In this document: positions 8,546-44,956 of the stretch, piece by piece
Layout of the letters: each line of letters opens with the position of its first letter
How positions within the stretch are numbered: position 1 is the stretch's first letter
Origin: Pontiella agarivorans
GTDB lineage: Bacteria; Verrucomicrobiota; Kiritimatiellia; Kiritimatiellales; Pontiellaceae
Assembly (NCBI RefSeq): GCF_034531395.1
Contig: NZ_JARVCO010000012.1
Location: 992,001-1,056,000, forward strand
DNA length: 64,000 bases
Reading direction: 5' to 3'
The notes under the pieces: model-generated
The model's input: only the letters and a program-made list of their open reading frames with translations
What the model was told of the DNA's origin: nothing
Databases searched by the model: none
Translations under genes and position numbers: made by a program

Positions 8546-10738
8546 TCAGAAGTTGTTGCCGATGGTTATGTAGAAGCGCGGACGGTTGAGGTCCAGGGCC
8601 TGGCCGATGCCGATCATTACACGCCCGATGAGGGTGTCGGCACCGAGGCCGGCCAGGGCGCCGAATTCAAGGTCCTTGATGTCGACGTCGCTTTTTTTCT
8701 TCCAGACCTTGCCGGTGTCGAAACGGGCCAGGGCAAATACGCCGTTACCGAAGGTGGGCGGCAGCCGGCCCAGCCGATAGCGGTAGGCCAAATTGAAAGA
8801 GCCGTAATAATTCCCGAAAAGCTGGTAGGGGGCATACCCTGCAAAGCTGTTCATGCCGCCAAGAAAAAATGACGCATAAAAGGGCAGTTCGGTGCCGAAG
8901 CTGCTGCCGCCGGAGAGCGTGGGGGTCAGGGTATGGCGGCCGATAGTCATCGGTACAAGGGCTTTGACTTCTACCCGGTCGAAACCATGCTCCGAGCCGA
9001 TTTTTTTATCGGTAAAACATCCGTCAACGGAGACCTGAAAGCCTTTACTTGGGAAAAAGTTATCATCAAGCTGGTCGAGTATCAGGCGGGTGGTGACGCC
9101 CACAACCCGATCGTTCAGTTCCCCCAGGGAGACGCTGCCGCTTCGCCCTTCATCCCATACGTGACCGCCGAGCATGCCGACGCGAAATTCTCCAAATTCG
9201 AATGCGGAAATTCCTGCGTCCAGATTGCAGAGAATGTGCTGTTGTTCGACCTCCGCGTAGCTGTCGTCATTATTATAAAGATCAATATCCTGGTCCAGTG
9301 CAGTCACCGAAGGGGAAACGAAGAAACGCCCGGAATGCGTCACCGGTTGATACCATTCGGCGAAAAATCCACGCTGCTGTTCGCCTCCCTGAAGATCGAC
9401 CCGGAGTTCGCCTCCGAGCGGGTTTAGATCACTATGTGTATAATTCAGAAGAAAGTTCCACAGCATCGAGGAATTGGAAGCCATCTCAAACTTTATACCG
9501 AAATGCAGGAATGCCGGACCCCAGTATTTTTCTTCGGTTTTATATACCAGAGCGTATTCTCCATTGTTGCGTTTCAGTTCATAAGTGACCGTTTGGAAAT
9601 TACCCATCCCGTATATTCTGCGCAGATCATGGTTGACGGTTTCCAGATCCAGCGGCCCTTTTTTTGACCGGACCCTGTATTCAATCAGATCAGTCAGCCC
9701 GCTGTTGCCATCTTCCACCCGAATTTCATTGATGATGATTTTTTTATCGTACTTTGCGCGCTGCCTGGCCAGGAATTCGGCATATTCAGCAGGCGGAACA
9801 CCCAGTGGTTTCAGCTCATCGAGTTTGTTTTCGGCGGCGATCTGGCCGGCCGGAATAATTTCAGCCGACCGCTGGAAATGGGAGGATGAGAAGTCGGAAA
9901 GATCGGGCTGGATTATGATATCAGCGGATTCGAGCTGCTTTTCCTGTCCCGGGCGCTGCATAATAGTATAAGTGCGGCCGATAACCTCAGGTACCGAATC
10001 AAAGTTGCTGACTTCGCTTTTGTGGGCCCCTGAAGCACCCACATCGACGGCAATGATAATGTCGGCTCCCATAGCTTTCACTACATCCACCGGCATATTG
10101 TTGAAAATGCCGCCGTCCACAAAAATTCGGTCGCCTATACGCACCGGCGTGAACACCCCCGGAACTGCCATGCTGGCCCGCATCGCCAGCGATAGATCCC
10201 CATCTTTCAGGATCACCGACTCACCTTTGCGCAGGTCTGTTGCGATGGCGCGATAGGGAATGTTCAGGTCATCAAAATCCGCGATACCGGTGCTGTTCAG
10301 CGAAAAGGTTTCCAGTACATTATTCAGCTTCTGTCCATAGGCCATACCGGGACGATATTGCAGTGCCCAGTGGTTGAATCCAAGTTCGGCTCCCATGTAG
10401 CGGTTGTCGTCCTGTTTGCGTCGGTAGACCAGGTATTGGTGCGGCGACTGATCTTTGAGCACATCCCACCAGTCGAGCTGCGTGAACGACTGTTCCATTT
10501 CGTCGGGGGTCATGCCGGAGGCATACATGCCCGCCACGATGGCCCCCATGCTTGTTCCGCCGATATAGTCGATGGGAATGTTGAGCTTTTCCAATTCTCT
10601 GATGACGCCGACATGTGCAAATCCCAACGCTCCGCCGCCGCCCAGTACAAGGCCGATTTTCGGTCGGTGGGTTTCGGTTCGGGCAACGGACGTGAGTGCC
10701 ATACAGAAGGTCAGAATAAACAGCCGTTTTCTTAACAT
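8546..10738 (-). CDS. Patatin-like phospholipase fused to POTRA and Omp85-type outer membrane barrel
   Basis: The N-terminus has a signal peptide (about residues 1-20), then a patatin domain. Its oxyanion loop GGGGALGF is at 33-40, the nucleophile elbow GTSMG at 61-65 gives catalytic Ser63, and DGG at 208-210 gives catalytic Asp208. After about residue 330 comes one POTRA-like domain (IIINEIRVEDGNSGL onwards), and from about 410 to the end an Omp85/surface-antigen beta barrel that finishes in phenylalanine. This is the PlpD/type Vd-like layout, in which the lipase is secreted or displayed by its own barrel. At 730 residues it is full length. It is divergent from thiL and convergent with the efflux operon. 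The lipid substrate is unknown. Confidence 0.9.
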   Translation of the reverse strand: MLRKRLFILTFCMALTSVARTETHRPKIGLVLGGGGALGFAHVGVIRELEKLNIPIDYIGGTSMGAIVAGMYASGMTPDEMEQSFTQLDWWDVLKDQSPHQYLVYRRKQDDNRYMGAELGFNHWALQYRPGMAYGQKLNNVLETFSLNSTGIADFDDLNIPYRAIATDLRKGESVILKDGDLSLAMRASMAVPGVFTPVRIGDRIFVDGGIFNNMPVDVVKAMGADIIIAVDVGASGAHKSEVSNFDSVPEVIGRTYTIMQRPGQEKQLESADIIIQPDLSDFSSSHFQRSAEIIPAGQIAAENKLDELKPLGVPPAEYAEFLARQRAKYDKKIIINEIRVEDGNSGLTDLIEYRVRSKKGPLDLETVNHDLRRIYGMGNFQTVTYELKRNNGEYALVYKTEEKYWGPAFLHFGIKFEMASNSSMLWNFLLNYTHSDLNPLGGELRVDLQGGEQQRGFFAEWYQPVTHSGRFFVSPSVTALDQDIDLYNNDDSYAEVEQQHILCNLDAGISAFEFGEFRVGMLGGHVWDEGRSGSVSLGELNDRVVGVTTRLILDQLDDNFFPSKGFQVSVDGCFTDKKIGSEHGFDRVEVKALVPMTIGRHTLTPTLSGGSSFGTELPFYASFFLGGMNSFAGYAPYQLFGNYYGSFNLAYRYRLGRLPPTFGNGVFALARFDTGKVWKKKSDVDIKDLEFGALAGLGADTLIGRVMIGIGQALDLNRPRFYITIGNNF

Positions 10739-17301: not shown

Positions 17302-17383
17302 GATTATCCTCCAGGAAATAAAGAAAGTTTAAATCTTCATCGTTGTGTCGTCAACGCTTGATCCATGTGGTGCCTCGCTTATA

Positions 17384-18913
17384 ATGAATTCCATGTCCAA
17401 CGGTAGCATATCCGGAGTCTGGAAATGGGGAACGTTTGATGTCTGTCATGTTGCCAGAAAACTGCCGCGCGGTTTTTCCATTGAGCCGGTGGAGGAGGCT
17501 GTGCTGACCGGGCAGATGCTGGACACCTTCAATGAAGTGATGCGGGAAAGCGGCTGCGTACTGTTGCAGACCGAAAAAAAACTGGTCCTCATCCATCTGC
17601 AGACCGGGAAAATTGATGAACAGACATTTTCCGGAAGCTGGAAGTTTGCGGATGAATTGAATGCCGGAGCTGTTCAATTTCAATGTCTGGAAAAATCCGA
17701 GCTCCGGGCTTTTATACCGTTGGGGGAGCTGACTGTTCAGTGGCGGCACTGGAGGGGGTGTGATGAGCTGCAGAAAACGGTGATGCGTTTAGTGAGTGTT
17801 GAATTCCTCTGCGGTGAAAAGCGGAGGGTCTGGCTGAGCGGTGAGGCATTGCGCGGTTATGAATCCGAAACGGCGAGGATTTTACGGGCATTGGAAAAGG
17901 CGGGGTTTGAAGCGGGCGATATGGAAAAAATTCCAATGTCTGGAAGCGGTCGGTCGGCCCATACCCCCAAGTCGATTGTGGCTATTGAGGCGGATTGGCC
18001 GATTTTTGAAACGGCGAATCAGATTGTACTAAGGGGGCTGGATATTGCCCGGCGGAATGAAGCCGGTGCGGCGGATGATGTTGATACTGAATTTCTGCAC
18101 GACTACCGGGTGAGCCTGCGCCGTGTCCGTTCATTACTTAGTCTTTTTAAAGGGGTGTATGACGATGGATTTTCGGAGGAAATGAAGTCTGAACTGAGGA
18201 ATGTGATGAAGCGAACAAACCGGCTGCGCGACCTGGATGTATATCTGCTGGGCCGGAAAAAATATTATGCACGGGTTCCAGAGTCGGTGCATGCGGGACT
18301 CGATATTATGTTCGGGATGATTGAGGCAGAGCGGTTGAGCGAACAGGAAAAAGTCGCCGCGTTTTTCCGGTCCTCGGAATACGATCGGCGGATGGAGCAC
18401 GTTCGGGCGAAGTTCCGGTGGTTCGAAAACCGGGGCCGAGGTTCCCGGGCGGCTATGCCGACGCTGAAGTTTGCGAGGCGGGTAAGCCGAAAACGGTATG
18501 AGCGGATTGTTGAAATTGCGCCGGTGATTTCAGAAAATGCGCCTGATGTTGCGGTCCATGAACTTCGGATTCAGTGTAAAAAGTTCCGTTATCTGCTGGA
18601 GTTTTTCGCGCCGCTTTTTCCGGCGGAAGAAAATAAGGTGCGGATCAAATCGCTGAAGAGATTGCAGGATGTGCTCGGGCGGTTTAATGATTATTCAGTG
18701 CAACGCGAGGCGCTGTCGGTTTTGGTGAAAACGCATCCGGTTCGAGGGAAAAAAGGGCTGATGCTGGCGGAGAGTGCGGGCGCGCTGGAGGCAACGTTGT
18801 TTCAACTGCAGTTGCAGGTCCGGCAGGATGTGGAAAAGGGGCTGGAAGAATTCGTGAAACCGGAGCCGGCCCGGGTATTCGAAGCATTATTTTCAAAAGG
18901 ATATACGGAATGA
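17384..18913 (+). CDS. CHAD domain-containing protein with CYTH-like N-terminal region
   Basis: CHAD domains are helical bundles with conserved histidines and basic residues that bind inorganic polyphosphate. The CHAD part covers about residues 210-500 and shows the hallmarks: HDYRVSLRRVRSLLSLF with His and Arg for phosphate binding, RLRDLDVYLL, VHELRIQCKKFRYLLEFF, then KRLQDVLGRFNDY. The first 190 residues look like a beta-rich, divergent CYTH (triphosphate tunnel) region, but the EXEXK motif is not obvious, so that label is tentative. The start is uncertain: the frame opens at GTG 17345, ATGs lie at 17384 and 17393, and none has a clear ribosome-binding site. The stop overlaps the ParA start by 4 bp (ATGA). 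It carries one exact and one near copy of the 15-bp palindrome. Confidence 0.85.
   Translation: MNSMSNGSISGVWKWGTFDVCHVARKLPRGFSIEPVEEAVLTGQMLDTFNEVMRESGCVLLQTEKKLVLIHLQTGKIDEQTFSGSWKFADELNAGAVQFQCLEKSELRAFIPLGELTVQWRHWRGCDELQKTVMRLVSVEFLCGEKRRVWLSGEALRGYESETARILRALEKAGFEAGDMEKIPMSGSGRSAHTPKSIVAIEADWPIFETANQIVLRGLDIARRNEAGAADDVDTEFLHDYRVSLRRVRSLLSLFKGVYDDGFSEEMKSELRNVMKRTNRLRDLDVYLLGRKKYYARVPESVHAGLDIMFGMIEAERLSEQEKVAAFFRSSEYDRRMEHVRAKFRWFENRGRGSRAAMPTLKFARRVSRKRYERIVEIAPVISENAPDVAVHELRIQCKKFRYLLEFFAPLFPAEENKVRIKSLKRLQDVLGRFNDYSVQREALSVLVKTHPVRGKKGLMLAESAGALEATLFQLQLQVRQDVEKGLEEFVKPEPARVFEALFSKGYTE
17931..17945. repeat. TTCCA-N5-TGGAA palindrome, in the CHAD gene
   Basis: Exact arms, core ATGTC. 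A one-mismatch copy (TTTCA arm) with the same core lies 253 bp upstream at 17678. Confidence 0.85.
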
Positions 18914-19650
18914 AGATTGTGGCATGTTACAGCAATAAGGGCGGCGTGGGAAAAACGGCGGCGGCCGTGAACTTGGCCTATGCTGCCGCTCTGAGTGGAA
19001 AGCGGGTGCTGCTGTGTGATCTGGATCCGCAGGGGGCGTCGGGGTTTTATTTCCGGGTGAAGCCGTCAAAACAACTGAGGGAAAAGCGGTTTTTTGAAGA
19101 TGTGAAGCGGTTTACTAAAGCAATCCGGGCAAGTGATTTTGATCACTTGGATCTGCTGCCGGCAAATCCGGATTTTCGGGATTTTGATATCTTTCTCTCG
19201 CGGATGAAGCATAGCCGTTCCCGGCTGAAAAAGGCGCTGAAGGCGGCGGACAATGAATATGATCTTTTGCTGCTGGACTGTCCGCCGAATATCTCACGCC
19301 TGTCGGAAAATGTTTTCAAGGCGTCGGACCGGATTATTGTTCCGGTTATTCCGACCACTCTTTCGGAACGGGCGCTGGAGCAGCTTTATTCATTTTTTGA
19401 TGAAGAAGGCTTGCGGAAGAAAAAAATCGTTCCGGTGTTTTCGATGGTGCAGAAGCGGAAGAAGCTGCATGCGGAGTCGATGGAACGTATGCGCAAAACG
19501 TATAAGCGGTTTCTGCAGCATACGATTCCTTTTTCGAGCGATATTGAAAAGATGGGTGTACACCGTGCTCCGGCGCTTTCGTATGCGGGGAAACGTTCGG
19601 CGGCTTGGGCCTATGAAGAGGTCTGGGAAGAAATTGAGTGTCTGATTTAG
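18910..19650 (+). CDS. ParA/MinD-family ATPase, orphan (no ParB next to it)
   Basis: A 246-residue deviant Walker A ATPase: KGGVGKT at residues 10-16, LCDLDPQGASGFYF as switch I, LLLLDCPPN as Walker B and a VIPTTLSERAL segment as in Soj/ParA. ParA proteins bind DNA and ATP as dimers and position cargo (chromosomes, plasmids, carboxysomes, chemosensory arrays) by travelling on the nucleoid. No ParB or parS-like array is nearby. Instead it is translationally coupled to a CHAD protein (ATGA overlap) and followed after 9 bp by a Nudix hydrolase. That arrangement suggests a cargo-positioning ATPase, with the polyphosphate-binding CHAD protein as the adaptor; this is inference. The middle section is unusually rich in K and R. 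Confidence 0.88.
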   Translation: MKIVACYSNKGGVGKTAAAVNLAYAAALSGKRVLLCDLDPQGASGFYFRVKPSKQLREKRFFEDVKRFTKAIRASDFDHLDLLPANPDFRDFDIFLSRMKHSRSRLKKALKAADNEYDLLLLDCPPNISRLSENVFKASDRIIVPVIPTTLSERALEQLYSFFDEEGLRKKKIVPVFSMVQKRKKLHAESMERMRKTYKRFLQHTIPFSSDIEKMGVHRAPALSYAGKRSAAWAYEEVWEEIECLI

Positions 19651-19659
19651 GATGAAATA

Positions 19660-20058
19660 ATGCAGAAACAGTATGGTGCTATTCCCTTTTTGTATGAGAA
19701 AGGTCAGCTCAAAGTGGTGATGATTACCAGTGCCCGCGGGTACTGGATTTTTCCGAAGGGCCGGTTCGAGGACAAGCTCGGTAAGTCTGGAACAGCTGCG
19801 CTGGAGGCGTTAGAGGAGGCGGGAATTGAAGGGCGCGTGGATAAAAAACACGTTTACCGGACCAAAGTGCTGATTAAGAGTGGAGAGCTGGTCCGGCTCT
19901 CTTTGTTTGCGCTGAAAGTGAACATCATACACGACGAATGGGATGAGAATGATCGCCGTAAACGCCGTATCGTTTCGATTCGGGAGGCCAAAACGCTGAT
20001 AACCTCAGAGGGTTTGCGGGATTGTCTGGAACAGTTTGAGGCGGAATTTGGTGGGTGA
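19660..20058 (+). CDS. Nudix hydrolase with partly degenerate Nudix box
   Basis: A 132-residue protein of the diphosphoinositol-polyphosphate/Ap4A hydrolase type. The fold signature WIFPKGRFED leads into the Nudix box. The metal-binding core E-x-x-E-E-x-G is intact (EALEEAGIEG, about residues 48-57), but the two other consensus positions are replaced: the first Glu by Leu and the Arg by Leu. Members of this branch cleave diphosphoinositol polyphosphates, dinucleoside polyphosphates and, in yeast Ddp1, polyphosphate. An AGGA box sits 7-8 bp before the ATG. As third gene of the CHAD-ParA operon, a phosphate-polymer role fits, but activity is not proven by sequence. Confidence 0.83.
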   Translation: MQKQYGAIPFLYEKGQLKVVMITSARGYWIFPKGRFEDKLGKSGTAALEALEEAGIEGRVDKKHVYRTKVLIKSGELVRLSLFALKVNIIHDEWDENDRRKRRIVSIREAKTLITSEGLRDCLEQFEAEFGG

Positions 20059-20107
20059 CTGGTCTTAATCCTGCTTCTAATGGTGGTTTTCTAAAGGTGA
20101 GGTGTTT

Positions 20108-20788
20108 ATGAAAGTTCTGAGAATGATTTTAATGCTGGTTGTCGCCGCAGGTGCTGCCGTCGGAGAGGAAAATGTGATTGAGCTGACGGCATCGAAAGAT
20201 GTGTTTTTTCGCAGTAATCACCGGACCAAGAACAACGGAGCCTCGAAGGCCCTGTTGTTGGCAGGGATGCCGGGAGTTACCACGCTGGTGGGGTTTGATC
20301 TGAGCGGCGTGACAAACGAAATTGAATCCGCGGAATTTTATTTCCAAATTCTAGAGGACTCCGATACGCCGCTTTCGCTGACAATTGCCACGATGGCGCT
20401 GGGTGAAAGCAATGGGCTCTGGGTTGAGGGGGGTGGAGATCTGGGGTTGCAGGGACGTAATGCAAAAGTCGGGGAATCGACTTTTCAGTGGCGGAGTTTC
20501 CGGGATGAAGACTGGGTGGATGCAAACGGACGTTCCGTTAAAAACCTGTTGGATTCCAGACTTTGGAATGAAGTTAAGCAGATTTCGGATGTAGAATGGG
20601 AGGCGGAGCGCCGGGTCGGCATTACGGTTGATCGCGCCCAGCTCGAAGAAGTCCGGAATATGGAAGTGCCGGTGATAACCTTCGGTCTTTGGGGAACCAA
20701 GGGGAATGGGGTTTATAAAATCGGTTCCAAAGAGTCGGATCAGCCAGCCCGGTTAATGTTGAAGGTTATTCCATCGGAAGCGTTCTGA
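20108..20788 (+). CDS. Exported DNRLRE/CBM96-like domain protein
   Basis: A signal peptide of about 20 residues (hydrophobic RMILMLVVAAGAAVG) precedes a single beta-sandwich domain. The pattern is that of the DNRLRE/CBM96 family: an N-terminal 'FRSNHRTKNNGASKALLLAG' strand, a LVGFDLSGV strand, a central LWVEGGGDLG loop, TFQWRSF, and a C-terminal FGLWGTKGNG segment. Such domains usually sit beside polysaccharide lyases or surface enzymes and bind carbohydrate; here the domain is alone. ATG 20108 is preferred over GTG 20102 because AGGTGAGG lies at the right distance. It follows the Nudix gene on the same strand, but there is no obvious functional link. Confidence 0.7.
   Translation: MKVLRMILMLVVAAGAAVGEENVIELTASKDVFFRSNHRTKNNGASKALLLAGMPGVTTLVGFDLSGVTNEIESAEFYFQILEDSDTPLSLTIATMALGESNGLWVEGGGDLGLQGRNAKVGESTFQWRSFRDEDWVDANGRSVKNLLDSRLWNEVKQISDVEWEAERRVGITVDRAQLEEVRNMEVPVITFGLWGTKGNGVYKIGSKESDQPARLMLKVIPSEAF
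20554..20568. repeat. TTCCA-N5-TGGAA palindrome, in the DNRLRE gene
   Basis: Exact arms, core GACTT, reading through codons for SRLWN. Confidence 0.75.
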
Positions 20789-39780: not shown

Positions 39781-39976
39781 TCGTTCTCCCATAAAAAAAT
39801 CAAAACGCACAGTGTAGCCTGAGCGTTGTATGAATCAATCCATAAAGCCGGTTGATCAATGGGAACCCGCCCATAATCAAGCGCGATGCGGATCGGCCGG
39901 AGCGTAAACAAAACATTAACATTCATTGCGCTTGGCCGGAACACGTTCTACCCTAAACTGCTCAAGAGGACATTAT

Positions 39977-41551
39977 ATGGCAGAAAAATCAGACCATTCC
40001 ATAACCTATCAACTCAAAGCGGTAATCGATATCGGTTCCACCTCTATCCGGATGGTGGTGGCTCAGGTTTTCGGGAACGGAACCTTCCAGACATTGGATA
40101 CGCTCAATCAGAGTGTCTCCATTGGCAGTGATACGTTTACCCGTGGCCGCATTTCGCGATCAACAATCGGTGATGCCGTCAAGGTGCTGCGCAATTTTTC
40201 GAGTGTATTGAACGAATATAATATTGATCCGAAAAAGGATGTTTATGCGGTGGCAACCAGTGCTGTGCGCGAGGCCCGGAACCGTGATGAATTTATTGAT
40301 CGGGTGTCCATGGCGACGGATATTGAGGTTCAGGCCATTGATGGCACAGAAGTCAATCGCCTGACCTTTCTGGCCATCCAGCCGACGTTGAAAAAATATT
40401 CCGGTCTCCGGAAAAACAGGTTGTTGGTGGCAGAAGTCGGCGGTGGCAGTACCGAACTGCTGGGGTTGGATCAGGGGCGGGTTTCTTTTGCCCATATTTA
40501 CCGCATGGGGGCCTATCGCCTGCGCGAGGCGATGGACGGTCAGGAAGGTTCCGTTGCACGGAAACGCGACGTGCTGCAGATGGAAATCGATTCCGGTATC
40601 CGCCAGTGTCGCGATGCGGTGCCGCGCGACGGACAACCGCTTTCACTTCTTCTGATGGGGGGCGAGGCCCGTTTTACCGCGCAGACGGTTGATGCGGACT
40701 GGGATGAACAGTCGGTTATTGATATCAGACTGAACGAATTGGAAAAGCTGGCCGAAAAAATCTTGTCCATGGATGTGGAGAAGGTGGTCCGCAAATACCA
40801 CATGACCATTGAAGAGGCGCAGACGCTTGCGCCTGCGCTCTTAACTTATGTGAAACTGGCGCAGGCATTCGGGGTGAAAAAAGTATCCGTCTGCGGCGCC
40901 TCCTTGCGGGATGGGCTGCTGACGGAAGCGGCGAGCGGGGGAGCCTGGAGTGAGGACTTTGTGGAACAGGTGCTGCACTCTGTGCACGAAGTCGGCCGGC
41001 GCTATCAGCTGGATCAGAATCATGCCGATTGCGTAACAGAGATTTCGCGTGCGATTTTCCGGGCGCTGAAGCGTGAGCATAAGTTGAGTTTCCGCTATGA
41101 AGTCATTTTGACGGTGGCCGCTCAACTTCACGACGTAGGTATGTTTATCGGCAGCAGCAGTCATCATAAACACAGTCAGTACATTATTGAAAACAGCGAT
41201 CTGTTCGGGCTCGGCGAAGAAGATATCAAACTGGTGGCGCTGGTGGCGCGGTATCATCGTCGGGCCAATCCCCGGCCGGGGCATCCGGGCTATGGAACAC
41301 TTACACGTGAAAACCGGCTGGCGGTGAATAAACTGGCGGCCATTCTTCGAGCCGCCGATGCCTTTGACCGTTCGCACACGCAGGCCATCCGCGATGTGAA
41401 AATTAGTGTTCACGAAGAGGAAGTGGTGGTTGAGACCACCCGGTCCGGTGATTTTACGGCGGAGAAACGGGCGCTTGCGGGTAAGGCAAAACTGTTTGAA
41501 CAGGTCTATGGTCGCACCATGGTTTTAAGGTCTAGAAGAAGACGGGGATAA
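39977..41551 (+). CDS. ppx: Exopolyphosphatase / guanosine pentaphosphatase (Ppx/GppA family)
   Basis: Hydrolyses terminal phosphates of polyphosphate or the gamma phosphate of pppGpp; the sequence does not tell which. The 524 residues have the ASKHA ATPase fold: AVIDIGSTSIRMVV near residue 15, TSAVREARNRDEF at about 88, VAEVGGGSTELLG at about 150, and a C-terminal HD-type domain (VAAQLHDVG, SHHKHSQYII) as in E. coli Ppx. ATG 39977 is chosen from an AAGAGGA box 8 bp upstream; the frame opens at 39926. Ppk1 follows 72 bp downstream on the same strand, which strengthens a polyphosphate role. Confidence 0.92.
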   Translation: MAEKSDHSITYQLKAVIDIGSTSIRMVVAQVFGNGTFQTLDTLNQSVSIGSDTFTRGRISRSTIGDAVKVLRNFSSVLNEYNIDPKKDVYAVATSAVREARNRDEFIDRVSMATDIEVQAIDGTEVNRLTFLAIQPTLKKYSGLRKNRLLVAEVGGGSTELLGLDQGRVSFAHIYRMGAYRLREAMDGQEGSVARKRDVLQMEIDSGIRQCRDAVPRDGQPLSLLLMGGEARFTAQTVDADWDEQSVIDIRLNELEKLAEKILSMDVEKVVRKYHMTIEEAQTLAPALLTYVKLAQAFGVKKVSVCGASLRDGLLTEAASGGAWSEDFVEQVLHSVHEVGRRYQLDQNHADCVTEISRAIFRALKREHKLSFRYEVILTVAAQLHDVGMFIGSSSHHKHSQYIIENSDLFGLGEEDIKLVALVARYHRRANPRPGHPGYGTLTRENRLAVNKLAAILRAADAFDRSHTQAIRDVKISVHEEEVVVETTRSGDFTAEKRALAGKAKLFEQVYGRTMVLRSRRRRG

Positions 41552-41623
41552 GTGCTTGGTGCGGAAACGGGTATGCAGACCGCTTAAACTGCGGACATTT
41601 TAAAAAAAACAGGCAGATACAGA

Positions 41624-43726
41624 ATGGCGAAAACTACACCGAAATCTAACTATTTCAACCGGGAACTGAGCTGGCTCGAGTTCAACCAGCGGGTGCTCGA
41701 ACAGGCGAAAGATCCGCGTAATCCGATGCTGGAGCGGTTGAAGTTCCTGGCCATCACGGCCTCCAACCTGGATGAGTTTTTCATGGTCCGTGTCGGCGGG
41801 CTGGCCATGGCCCGTAAAGCGGGACTGCGTAAAAAAGATCCGGCAGGTATGACGCCGCTGGCGCAGTTGAAGGAAATCTATCCGCGCTCGCAGAAAATGA
41901 TGAAGGAATTGCACAGCTGTTTTAACGATGTGGTTTCACCGGCGTTGGAGCGGGGCGGAATCCGGCATGCGGACATTCATGCGTTGACGGCGGAGCAGGA
42001 TGCATTTGTTTTTGAGCTTTTTAAAGAGGAGCTGTTTCCGGTGATTACACCGGTGGCGCTGTGTGATGGGCAGAGTGTGCCGATGATCCGGAATCTGGCG
42101 CTGAATGTACTGGTACGTTTGCAGGACAAAGCGTCCGGAGATCGAAAAAATCTTTATGCCGTCATGTCGCTGGATCGGGCTGGTTCTCGTATTGTGCAGC
42201 TGCCGAGCGATGAGGGCTATGTTTATGTGCTGCGTGAAGAGGTGGTGAAAAAATATGCGGCCGACTGGTTTCCTGGCTATGAGGTTATGGAATGTGCACA
42301 GTTCCGCATCACCCGGAATGCGGACTTTGCCGTTGCGGAAAATGAAGCGCCGGATCTCATGCGGGGCATGGAGGATGTGCTGGAAGAACGGAAGACGGGC
42401 GATTGCGTTCGGCTTGAGGTTAAATCTGCCGTTTCCAAAGGTGTGTTGAAGTTTCTTTCGGCCAGTTTGCAGGTTTCGGCCGAAGCGATATTTTTGATCG
42501 ACGACGTATTGAACATGAAGGATTTTATGTCGATGTTTATACCGGGATACGATGAGCTCAAGGTGGAGCCGTGGCCGCCTCAGGCTTCGCCTGACGTAAT
42601 TCCGAACGAACCGATGTTTGGTCAGATCGCAAAAAAAGATCTGCTGTTTTATCATCCGTATGAAACGTTCGATCCGGTGGTTCGCTTTATTGAAGAGGCG
42701 GCGGCTGATCCCGATACCATGGCGATTAAGATGGTGCTGTACCGCACCAGTTCCGACAGCGCGATTATTGCCGCTCTCAAACGGGCCGCGGAAAACGGGG
42801 TGAATGTCACGGCGCTGATAGAGCTTAAGGCGCGGTTTGATGAAGCGCAGAATATTTCCTGGTCGCGTGCGCTGGAGCAGTGCGGAGTGCAGGTGATATA
42901 CGGTGTCAAGGGGTATAAGACCCATGCTAAAATCTGCATGGTGGTGCGCCGTGAACCGGCCGGGGTGGTGCGCTATTGCCATTTCGGCACGGGGAATTAT
43001 AACGAATCCACCGCCAAACTGTATGGCGATATCAGCTATATGACCTGTAACCCCGATCTGGGCAATGATGCCGCCGGTTTTTTCAATGCGCTCTGCGGAT
43101 ATGCTCAGCCACGCGATTTTAATCTTATCAGCATGGCACCGATCAGTATGCGCGATAAGTTGTTGGAGATGATTGATTTTGAAATTGAACGCGCCAAAAA
43201 AGGCAAAAAGGCGCTGGTGAATGCCAAGGTGAACTCGTTGGTGGATGTGGTGCTTTCGGAAAAACTGTATGAAGCCGCGAAGGCGGGTGTGAAAATCAAC
43301 CTGAATGTTCGGGGGATCTGCTGCCTGAAACCGATTGCGAATATCACCGTCACCAGCATCATCGATCGCTATCTGGAACATGCTCGCATCATTCATTTTC
43401 ATCACGGCGGAAAACCACGGGTCTATATTGCGAGCGCGGACTGGATGCCGCGGAATCTGGACAAACGGCTGGAGTTGATGGTGCCGGTGGAAGATCCGGG
43501 CTGCCGGGATCAACTGATCAGAATGAATGAGATCCACAATGCAGACAACCAGAGTGCGTGGGTGCTGAAGCCTTCGGGAACCTACGAGCGGGTGAGCAGC
43601 CGCGGTGTAAAAAAGATCCGAAGTCAGGAGGTGCTGTATAACAACGCCTGCTCGGCTCTTGTCGACGCCGAGAAAAAACGTCGCACCCGGTTTGAACCGC
43701 ATCGGCCGGAATCGCAGAGTACATAA
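41624..43726 (+). CDS. ppk1: Polyphosphate kinase 1
   Basis: Makes polyphosphate from ATP reversibly through a phosphohistidine. The 700 residues have the four-domain layout: N-terminal FNRELSWLEFNQRVLEQA, then head and two phospholipase-D-like domains. The autophosphorylated His is in GYKTHAKIC, at about residue 436. The next block HFGTGNYNESTAKLYGD and the RGICCLKP segment, which bind ATP, are intact, and SADWMPRNLDKRLELM is near the end. Length matches E. coli Ppk (688). It follows ppx, with which it forms a polymer-turnover pair. Confidence 0.96.
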   Translation: MAKTTPKSNYFNRELSWLEFNQRVLEQAKDPRNPMLERLKFLAITASNLDEFFMVRVGGLAMARKAGLRKKDPAGMTPLAQLKEIYPRSQKMMKELHSCFNDVVSPALERGGIRHADIHALTAEQDAFVFELFKEELFPVITPVALCDGQSVPMIRNLALNVLVRLQDKASGDRKNLYAVMSLDRAGSRIVQLPSDEGYVYVLREEVVKKYAADWFPGYEVMECAQFRITRNADFAVAENEAPDLMRGMEDVLEERKTGDCVRLEVKSAVSKGVLKFLSASLQVSAEAIFLIDDVLNMKDFMSMFIPGYDELKVEPWPPQASPDVIPNEPMFGQIAKKDLLFYHPYETFDPVVRFIEEAAADPDTMAIKMVLYRTSSDSAIIAALKRAAENGVNVTALIELKARFDEAQNISWSRALEQCGVQVIYGVKGYKTHAKICMVVRREPAGVVRYCHFGTGNYNESTAKLYGDISYMTCNPDLGNDAAGFFNALCGYAQPRDFNLISMAPISMRDKLLEMIDFEIERAKKGKKALVNAKVNSLVDVVLSEKLYEAAKAGVKINLNVRGICCLKPIANITVTSIIDRYLEHARIIHFHHGGKPRVYIASADWMPRNLDKRLELMVPVEDPGCRDQLIRMNEIHNADNQSAWVLKPSGTYERVSSRGVKKIRSQEVLYNNACSALVDAEKKRRTRFEPHRPESQST

Positions 43727-43804
43727 TCAAACACACGGAAAGCCCGGTTTTCAGATCCTTTTTCCGTTGCTTACCAGCAGCATCAGGCAGGTTTTAGGCG
43801 GGAT

Positions 43805-43819
43805 TTCCAATGTTTGGAC
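43805..43819. repeat. One-mismatch 15-bp palindrome upstream of pfkA
   Basis: TTCCA arm exact, right arm TGGAC, core ATGTT, 37 bp before the pfkA start. Listed because it is intergenic. Confidence 0.55.
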
Positions 43820-43855
43820 TGGCGGAACACCCGGCAGTCAGAATAGATTTTCGGT

Positions 43856-44956
43856 ATGGAAACCAAAACAAAAACCATCGGAATTTTAACATCGGGCGGA
43901 GACTGTCCGGGACTCAATGCAGCTATCCGCGGAGTGGCGAAAGCGGCGCTCGGGCAGGGGACAACCGTGATTGGAATTCAGGACGGATTTCGCGGTCTGG
44001 TCGAAAACCGGGTGATGATGCTGGATGATAAGGATGTCAGCGGCATTCTGACGCACGGCGGAACCTTTCTGGGATCGAGTCGCGATAAACCCCACAAAAT
44101 GCCTATGGGCGATAAGGTGCTGGATATGACCGAAGTCGCGGTTTCCAATGCCCGGAAAAATCATATCGACTGTCTGGTCTGTCTCGGAGGAAACGGCACG
44201 CAGAAAAATGCGATGCGCCTGCATGAAGCCGGGCTGAATGTGCTGACGCTGCCGAAAACGATTGATAACGATGTGGCCGGCACCGATATTACGTTTGGTT
44301 TTGATTCTTCAATGGCCATTGCGACCGAAGCCATTGACCGTTTGCATACGACGGCGAGCAGTCATCATCGTGCGATTGTCTGCGAAATCATGGGGCATAA
44401 AGCCGGCTGGCTGACGCTGGGAGCAGGAATTGCGGGAGGAGCGGATGTGATTCTGCTGCCGGAAATTCCGTATGATCTTGAGCATGTTGTAGAGCACCTT
44501 ATGGCGCGGCGTCACCATAATAAGCGGTTTTCGATTATCGCTGTTGCAGAAGGTGCAATTTCGAAAACCGAGGCTTCAGAGGGGCGTAAAAAAAAGAAAA
44601 TTCCGCGTGACGGGGAAGTTGAAGGTTTGATTCAGGAACCGGTGGCCAGTCGTGTGGCGCGCGAAATCCAGCAGGCTGCCGGGATCGAAGTGCGCTATAC
44701 CTCGCTGGGTCATGTGCAGCGCGGGGGATCGCCCACGGCAACCGACCGCCTGCTCTCCACACGGCTTGGGACGAAAGCCGGTGAACTGCTGCACGACGGG
44801 ATTTATAATGTGATGGTGGGGCTGAAAGGAGAAACCTGCGAGGCGGTTCCGCTGAACGAGGTGGCGGGACGGACCAAGGTGGTTCCAGCGGATCATCCAT
44901 GGCTGAAGACCGCCGCTCTGGTGGATACCTGCCTGGGGGATCAGCTTGAATTTTAG
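43856..44956 (+). CDS. pfkA: 6-phosphofructokinase (PfkA superfamily; phosphoryl donor unclear)
   Basis: Phosphorylates fructose 6-phosphate in glycolysis. The 366 residues start with LTSGGDCPGLNAAIRG. The donor-site motif, normally GGDGS/T, reads GGNGT, so the Asp at E. coli position 103 is Asn. Position 104 is Gly, the residue found in ATP-dependent enzymes, while the later PKTIDND has the Lys at position 124 that typifies pyrophosphate-dependent ones. Substrate loops TIDND, IMGHKAGWL and GHVQRGG are intact. A similar motif mix occurs in PFKs of clostridial and spirochaete type. It follows ppk1 on the same strand after 129 bp. The donor could be ATP or pyrophosphate. Confidence 0.9.
   Translation: METKTKTIGILTSGGDCPGLNAAIRGVAKAALGQGTTVIGIQDGFRGLVENRVMMLDDKDVSGILTHGGTFLGSSRDKPHKMPMGDKVLDMTEVAVSNARKNHIDCLVCLGGNGTQKNAMRLHEAGLNVLTLPKTIDNDVAGTDITFGFDSSMAIATEAIDRLHTTASSHHRAIVCEIMGHKAGWLTLGAGIAGGADVILLPEIPYDLEHVVEHLMARRHHNKRFSIIAVAEGAISKTEASEGRKKKKIPRDGEVEGLIQEPVASRVAREIQQAAGIEVRYTSLGHVQRGGSPTATDRLLSTRLGTKAGELLHDGIYNVMVGLKGETCEAVPLNEVAGRTKVVPADHPWLKTAALVDTCLGDQLEF

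Follow-up and report, generated by a model that had tools for sequence, protein, structure and literature searches.

A conserved CHAD-ParA gene pair as a probable polyphosphate module with its own ParA-type ATPase and a candidate for granule placement on the nucleoid

Three adjacent plus-strand genes lie in the stretch of DNA analysed here (the window), which comprises 64,000 nucleotides of contig NZ_JARVCO010000012.1 from Pontiella agarivorans. The first gene, at 17384..18913, opens with ATG and encodes a CHAD protein (Pfam CHAD, PF05235, E 1e-52); a GTG at 17345 is a possible alternative start, and an ATG at 17393 is the best fit to the relatives. Its stop overlaps the start of the second gene in an ATGA junction (18910..18913, + strand), so that the two genes are likely to be translationally coupled, and this second gene, at 18910..19650, encodes an orphan ParA-type ATPase (Pfam AAA_31, PF13614, E 2e-37) that falls in a CHAD-linked clade. 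A small, accessory Nudix hydrolase-like gene follows 9 bp after ParA, at 19660..20058 (PF00293, E 0.0019). A check of the open reading frames and junctions found this arrangement, with its overlap and 9-bp gap, exactly as the original prediction had described it, and the absence of an adjacent ParB was likewise borne out, none being present among the ParA neighbours. The sole ParB of the genome is encoded at C12:14484, about 1 Mb from the ParA gene, and a Soj-type ParA of the same genome is found on contig C10. The genome holds a single CHAD gene, with PPK2 and CYTH genes located elsewhere.

The original prediction had also pointed to ppk1 and ppx as part of the setting. Both are real and lie in the window, ppx at 39926-41551 (+ strand) and ppk1 directly after it at 41624-43726 (+ strand), but they are about 20 kb from the CHAD-ParA pair and outside its operon. 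A phosphofructokinase gene comes after these two, all three being on the + strand within 39926-44956. Upstream of the pair, positions 8546-10738 encode a protein that joins a patatin-like phospholipase to an Omp85-type barrel, a PlpD-like architecture. The product of the gene that follows Nudix (20102-20788) is probably secreted and matches CBM96 weakly; this gene probably stands outside the CHAD-ParA module. A defence-system reading of the locus was dropped because PADLOC returned only weak P-loop matches for ParA and no match for CHAD or Nudix, and a phage origin was dropped as well, the PHROGs match being to a general ParA-like family only.

When 195 genomes of the phylum were searched for orthologues of the ATPase, ten matches exceeded 200 bits; after them came a gap down to matches below 85 bits, at which the Soj-type proteins begin. 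CHAD is present in nine of the ten ParA-holding genomes and adjoins ParA in all nine, compared with 51 of the 195 genomes that hold CHAD overall, which puts the association well beyond chance; co-occurrence alone yields a Fisher p of 2.6e-5 across the 195 genomes. One of the ten, from genome G150, is identical to the ParA of Lentisphaerota bacterium zth2. A wider scan of 85,000 species genomes recovered at least 80 ParA relatives, and those listed come from Pseudomonadota, Thermodesulfobacteriota, Myxococcota, Chlorobiota, Bacteroidota, Acidobacteriota, Actinomycetota, Dormibacterota, KSB1, Dadabacteria and Lentisphaerota. Among the matches listed, 52 of 80 relatives have CHAD immediately upstream of ParA, and 33 of these 52 share the four-base stop-start overlap. 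CHAD-ParA pairs in other genomes, for which the original prediction had proposed a search, are thus adjacent in at least ten phyla rather than confined to a single species, and both genes are retained together when unlinked.

This co-retention is clearest in the Chlorobiaceae, where 59 of 61 genomes hold this CHAD type and 60 of the 61 hold ParA; the two genes are neighbours in 53 genomes and separated but both kept in 6, and the sole ParA-only genome has its ParA cut at a contig end. Methylococcales with an unlinked ParA hold this CHAD type, 500 residues long, at another place in the genome, and in several of them the unlinked CHAD gene adjoins a SixA phosphatase gene. In two Halomonas, ParA is directly followed by a short CHAD gene in convergent orientation. 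In Chitinophagaceae with a ParA of this clade, CHAD is missing or divergent, and no CHAD was detected in the Marinobacter and Kushneria genomes with such a ParA; since these lineages keep the ATPase with a divergent CHAD or none detectable, it may have other partners.

The CHAD protein is of a distinct type, in which a degenerate triphosphate-tunnel (CYTH-like, TTM) domain at about residues 8-188 and a long CHAD domain at about residues 206-505 are connected by a flexible, low-confidence linker (about residues 183-205) that contains K196. The CHAD domain had been recognised correctly from the start, and the degenerate TTM domain had been overlooked. Structural matches to the N-terminal domain include 2GFG at Z 8.3, a level (Z about 8) that can be common, and several TTM structures near Z 7; the domain also matches 5A60, a TTM-CHAD protein, and TTM entries dominate its matches. 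The ExExK signature is absent in 54 of 55 CHAD family members, the window protein included, and present in five of the five neighbour CYTH proteins checked.

The linker carries a motif of the form Y-[ST]-[SA]-K, whose position is encoded at 17939..17998 on the + strand (about residues 186-205). The tyrosine is found in 43 and the lysine in 42 of 55 family members; because the strict form, Y[ST][SAPG]K, occurs in only 28 of 55 and the window protein reads H-T-P-K (the lysine being K196), we treat the motif as a lead and not as a defining mark. The unlinked CHAD proteins of Methylococcales and the CHAD protein of Chlorobium tepidum retain it; where a genome lacks this ParA, the motif was not observed in its CHAD proteins. 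The part of ParB that activates ParA is a short, disordered peptide centred on an Arg or Lys (PMC12462528), and by analogy the CHAD linker is a candidate site for ParA contact and activation.

The CHAD family profile finds the C. tepidum CHAD domain (CtCHAD; 3E0S, 6QV7/6QVA) at 407 bits, and the AlphaFold model of the window protein superposes on 6QV7 with a Z of 35.7 and an rmsd of 1.9 over 314 residues. CtCHAD was crystallised with a polyphosphate (polyP) 9-mer in its central pore (PMC6537752; 6QVA), its binding to polyP has been shown in vitro (PMC6537752), and H253, R256, R260 and R296 matter for that binding (PMC6537752). These four contacts are invariant in 55 of 55 family members, the K441 position is K or R in all 55, and the window equivalents are H239, R242, R246, R282 and K425. 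With all core contacts present, the window protein is predicted to bind polyP, and the polyP link originally proposed for CHAD is upheld for this CHAD type by the experimental binding of CtCHAD (PMC6537752). In the genome with the 100% match to CtCHAD, moreover, the CHAD gene lies 2 bp upstream of a ParA of the same clade, with PPK1 about 3 kb upstream of the pair.

The ATPase has the marks of its family, namely a deviant Walker A motif with the signature lysine (KGGVGKT), the Walker A' aspartates and Walker B, and K10, K15, T16, D37, D39 and D123 are invariant in 90 of 90 relatives. Its AlphaFold model (pLDDT 90) aligns with Soj and ParA entries at TM 0.84-0.90, the nearest folds being ATP-bound ParA, Soj and McdA structures. 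In the tree, a branch with full support (100/100) separates all 90 members from Soj-type proteins; the window ParA groups with Desulfobacter and next with roseobacters and Nitrosomonas, and lateral transfer is evident. The positions equivalent to K227 and K230, the DNA-contacting lysines of H. pylori Soj, are neither basic nor conserved here, and a conserved basic set (R183, K184, K214, R219) lies in the same region. DNA-contact residues are poorly conserved between ParA-like families (PMC7229837), and non-specific DNA binding by this ATPase, for which ParA proteins use basic residues at the edge of the dimer, is likely by family membership.

Around the pair, genes of polyP metabolism and phosphohistidine turnover recur. 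Within about 6 kb of ParA at the 80 listed loci there are 13 CYTH, 11 SixA, 8 PPK1, 5 Nudix and 3 PPX genes, the Nudix count having been obtained with the window Nudix as query among the matches listed. The eight PPK1 genes compare with about 0.3 expected within 6 kb, a difference that is significant even allowing for relatedness. PPK1 was found in 37 of 41 ParA-holding genomes tested and PPK2 in three of the other four; the remaining genome, which has neither, measures 1.5 Mb and is probably incomplete. The Nudix protein of the window scores 18.7 bits against PF00293, just under the family cut-off of 21.1, and keeps the metal-binding glutamates of the Nudix box with two box positions changed, whereas its counterpart in the same operon of a same-genus relative reaches 27.4 bits against that cut-off. 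The gene does belong to the operon, as had been proposed, but its rarity at the listed loci makes it an optional accessory, and a CHAD-Nudix core was rejected on the same count. The commoner third gene is a CYTH/TTM phosphatase. A CYTH gene is absent from the window operon; the same-genus genome G157 has the order CHAD-ParA-CYTH-Nudix, and genome G187 encodes a natural CYTH-Nudix fusion downstream of CHAD-ParA (L037:7553-8425).

Taken together, CHAD-ParA is well supported as a conserved polyP module with its own ParA. The module proposed in the original prediction thus survives in its pairing across phyla and its polyP-binding CHAD type, and not in a Nudix core or in ppk1 and ppx as operon members. 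Because a polyP-gripping protein is paired with a ParA in many phyla, bacteria may place and share their phosphate granules by means of an ATP-driven machine, and ParA-driven placement of polyP granules on the nucleoid is the best explanation of the pair, to which we assign somewhat better than an even chance. The CHAD protein would coat the granules through its long CHAD domain and serve as cargo adaptor in place of ParB or McdB, while ParA would dimerise on ATP and bind the nucleoid. Granule-bound CHAD protein would then trigger ATP hydrolysis and release of ParA, probably by contact through its flexible linker or degenerate TTM domain, such that granules would follow the ParA gradient upwards, keep their distances along the nucleoid and be divided among the daughter cells, with neighbours such as CYTH, SixA, Nudix and PPK1 tuning chain synthesis and turnover at the granule. 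ParA-CHAD contact, nucleoid binding and granule movement are the steps we infer here. The full proposition, a ParA system with polyP granules as cargo and CHAD replacing ParB/McdB, spread over at least ten phyla by vertical and lateral descent and governing the placement and inheritance of phosphate stores, appears evenly balanced between being right and wrong.

ParA/MinD relatives also act as regulators, as is the case for BcsQ, FlhG and FleN, and the ATPase could instead act in polyP metabolism as a regulator or an assembly factor, its ATP-dependent docking switching PPK1, CYTH or CHAD complexes on and off, in the way that BcsQ acts on cellulose synthase and FlhG on flagella. Such a role fits the neighbouring genes (PPK1, SixA, CYTH, Nudix), whose enzymes act in polyP metabolism and in the turnover of phosphohistidine in proteins, the membership of BcsQ and FlhG in the same superfamily as ParA, the proximity of ParA to PPK1 in a Marinobacter genome without CHAD, and the lack of conservation of the canonical Soj DNA-binding lysines. 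By both sequence and fold, however, the closest counterparts of the ATPase are the nucleoid-binding ParA/Soj proteins, followed by McdA, and BcsQ and FlhG stand further off; inspection of the AlphaFold model of the ATPase revealed no membrane-targeting tail, and the ATPase is usually paired with a granule binder, not with an enzyme. We regard the regulatory role as possible but rather unlikely.

A further alternative, which we consider improbable, makes DNA the cargo or target, with granules held on the nucleoid through ParA-CHAD affecting chromosome segregation or the compaction of the nucleoid during starvation. Family membership of the ATPase and the connection in Caulobacter between how chromosomes segregate and how granules are inherited (reviewed in PMC13052382) speak for it, yet the genome has its own ParB and Soj-type ParA elsewhere, and a patchy distribution (10 of 195 genomes) combined with lateral transfer is ill-suited to an essential chromosome function. 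The pair might also be a relic of plasmid or mobile-element partition, a stray ParA gene beside CHAD by chance, since annotation libraries call the ATPase plasmid ParA/RepA-like and one relative (G173) resides on an 885-kb replicon. No ParB accompanies it, however, and the occurrence of the pair in at least ten phyla, together with its co-retention after separation, leaves this account very little probability for the present locus; as a general account, it is refuted by the conserved CHAD-ParA pairing.

Placement of polyP granules by ParA-CHAD, the reading we prefer, has its closest parallel in McdAB, which positions carboxysomes on the nucleoid. As with McdA-McdB, an orphan ParA-type ATPase is encoded beside a binder of an intracellular body, and McdA is among the closest solved folds to the window ParA, after Soj/ParA; unlike McdA-McdB, the candidate adaptor gene here is CHAD in every linked locus, the presumed cargo is polyP and the ParA forms a separate clade. 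Similarly, the window protein shares the CtCHAD long fold and core contacts with CHAD proteins and phosins (CtCHAD, YgiF, PptA), CtCHAD being itself ParA-linked, and differs from other CHAD proteins in its TTM-like domain without ExExK and in the linker motif, which CHAD proteins of ParA-lacking genomes did not show.

In Acidithiobacillus, a folD-ppk-parA-CHAD cluster with the same kind of neighbourhood was reported in 2019 and 2024, with parA between ppk and CHAD and termed a partition protein (PMC6416229, PMC10892726). That cluster, which we compare by its published description, concerns one genus, its parA was glossed as serving plasmid/chromosome partition, and granule placement was not proposed. 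The one characterised factor that spaces polyP granules evenly on the nucleoid, AlgP of Pseudomonas aeruginosa (PMC9239181), does not belong to the ParA proteins; unlike the window ATPase, it is a histone-H1-like DNA tether of an unrelated family with no ATPase. A 2025 review of organelle positioning names AlgP as the polyP-granule positioning protein and counts both the mechanism of spacing and any dependence on ATP among the unknowns (PMC13052382), and none of the papers covered by our literature search proposes a ParA for polyP granules. The present work offers a named, genome-wide candidate pair, including a protein crystallised with polyP, which makes the granule spacing question directly testable; if the proposal is true, a granule of a polymer that is neither DNA nor protein would join the cargoes of ParA ATPases.

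Some loci of the clade show further arrangements. In Chitinophagaceae (L110, L113, L115, L117, L118, L120 and others), the gene after the CHAD-less ParA often encodes a conserved putative esterase of 243 residues (PF00756), which may be a different cargo or partner of the clade ParA. At L102 and L119, the clade ParA is close to PPK1, in convergent orientation and with no CHAD beside it. Genome G173 has PPK2 and no PPK1, and at its locus L034 (contig C2, 884666 bases) CHAD-ParA-CYTH-Nudix spans the contig ends, with pieces of CHAD at 884429-884653 and 24-443, so the replicon that carries the module there is apparently circular, with a length of about 885 kb.
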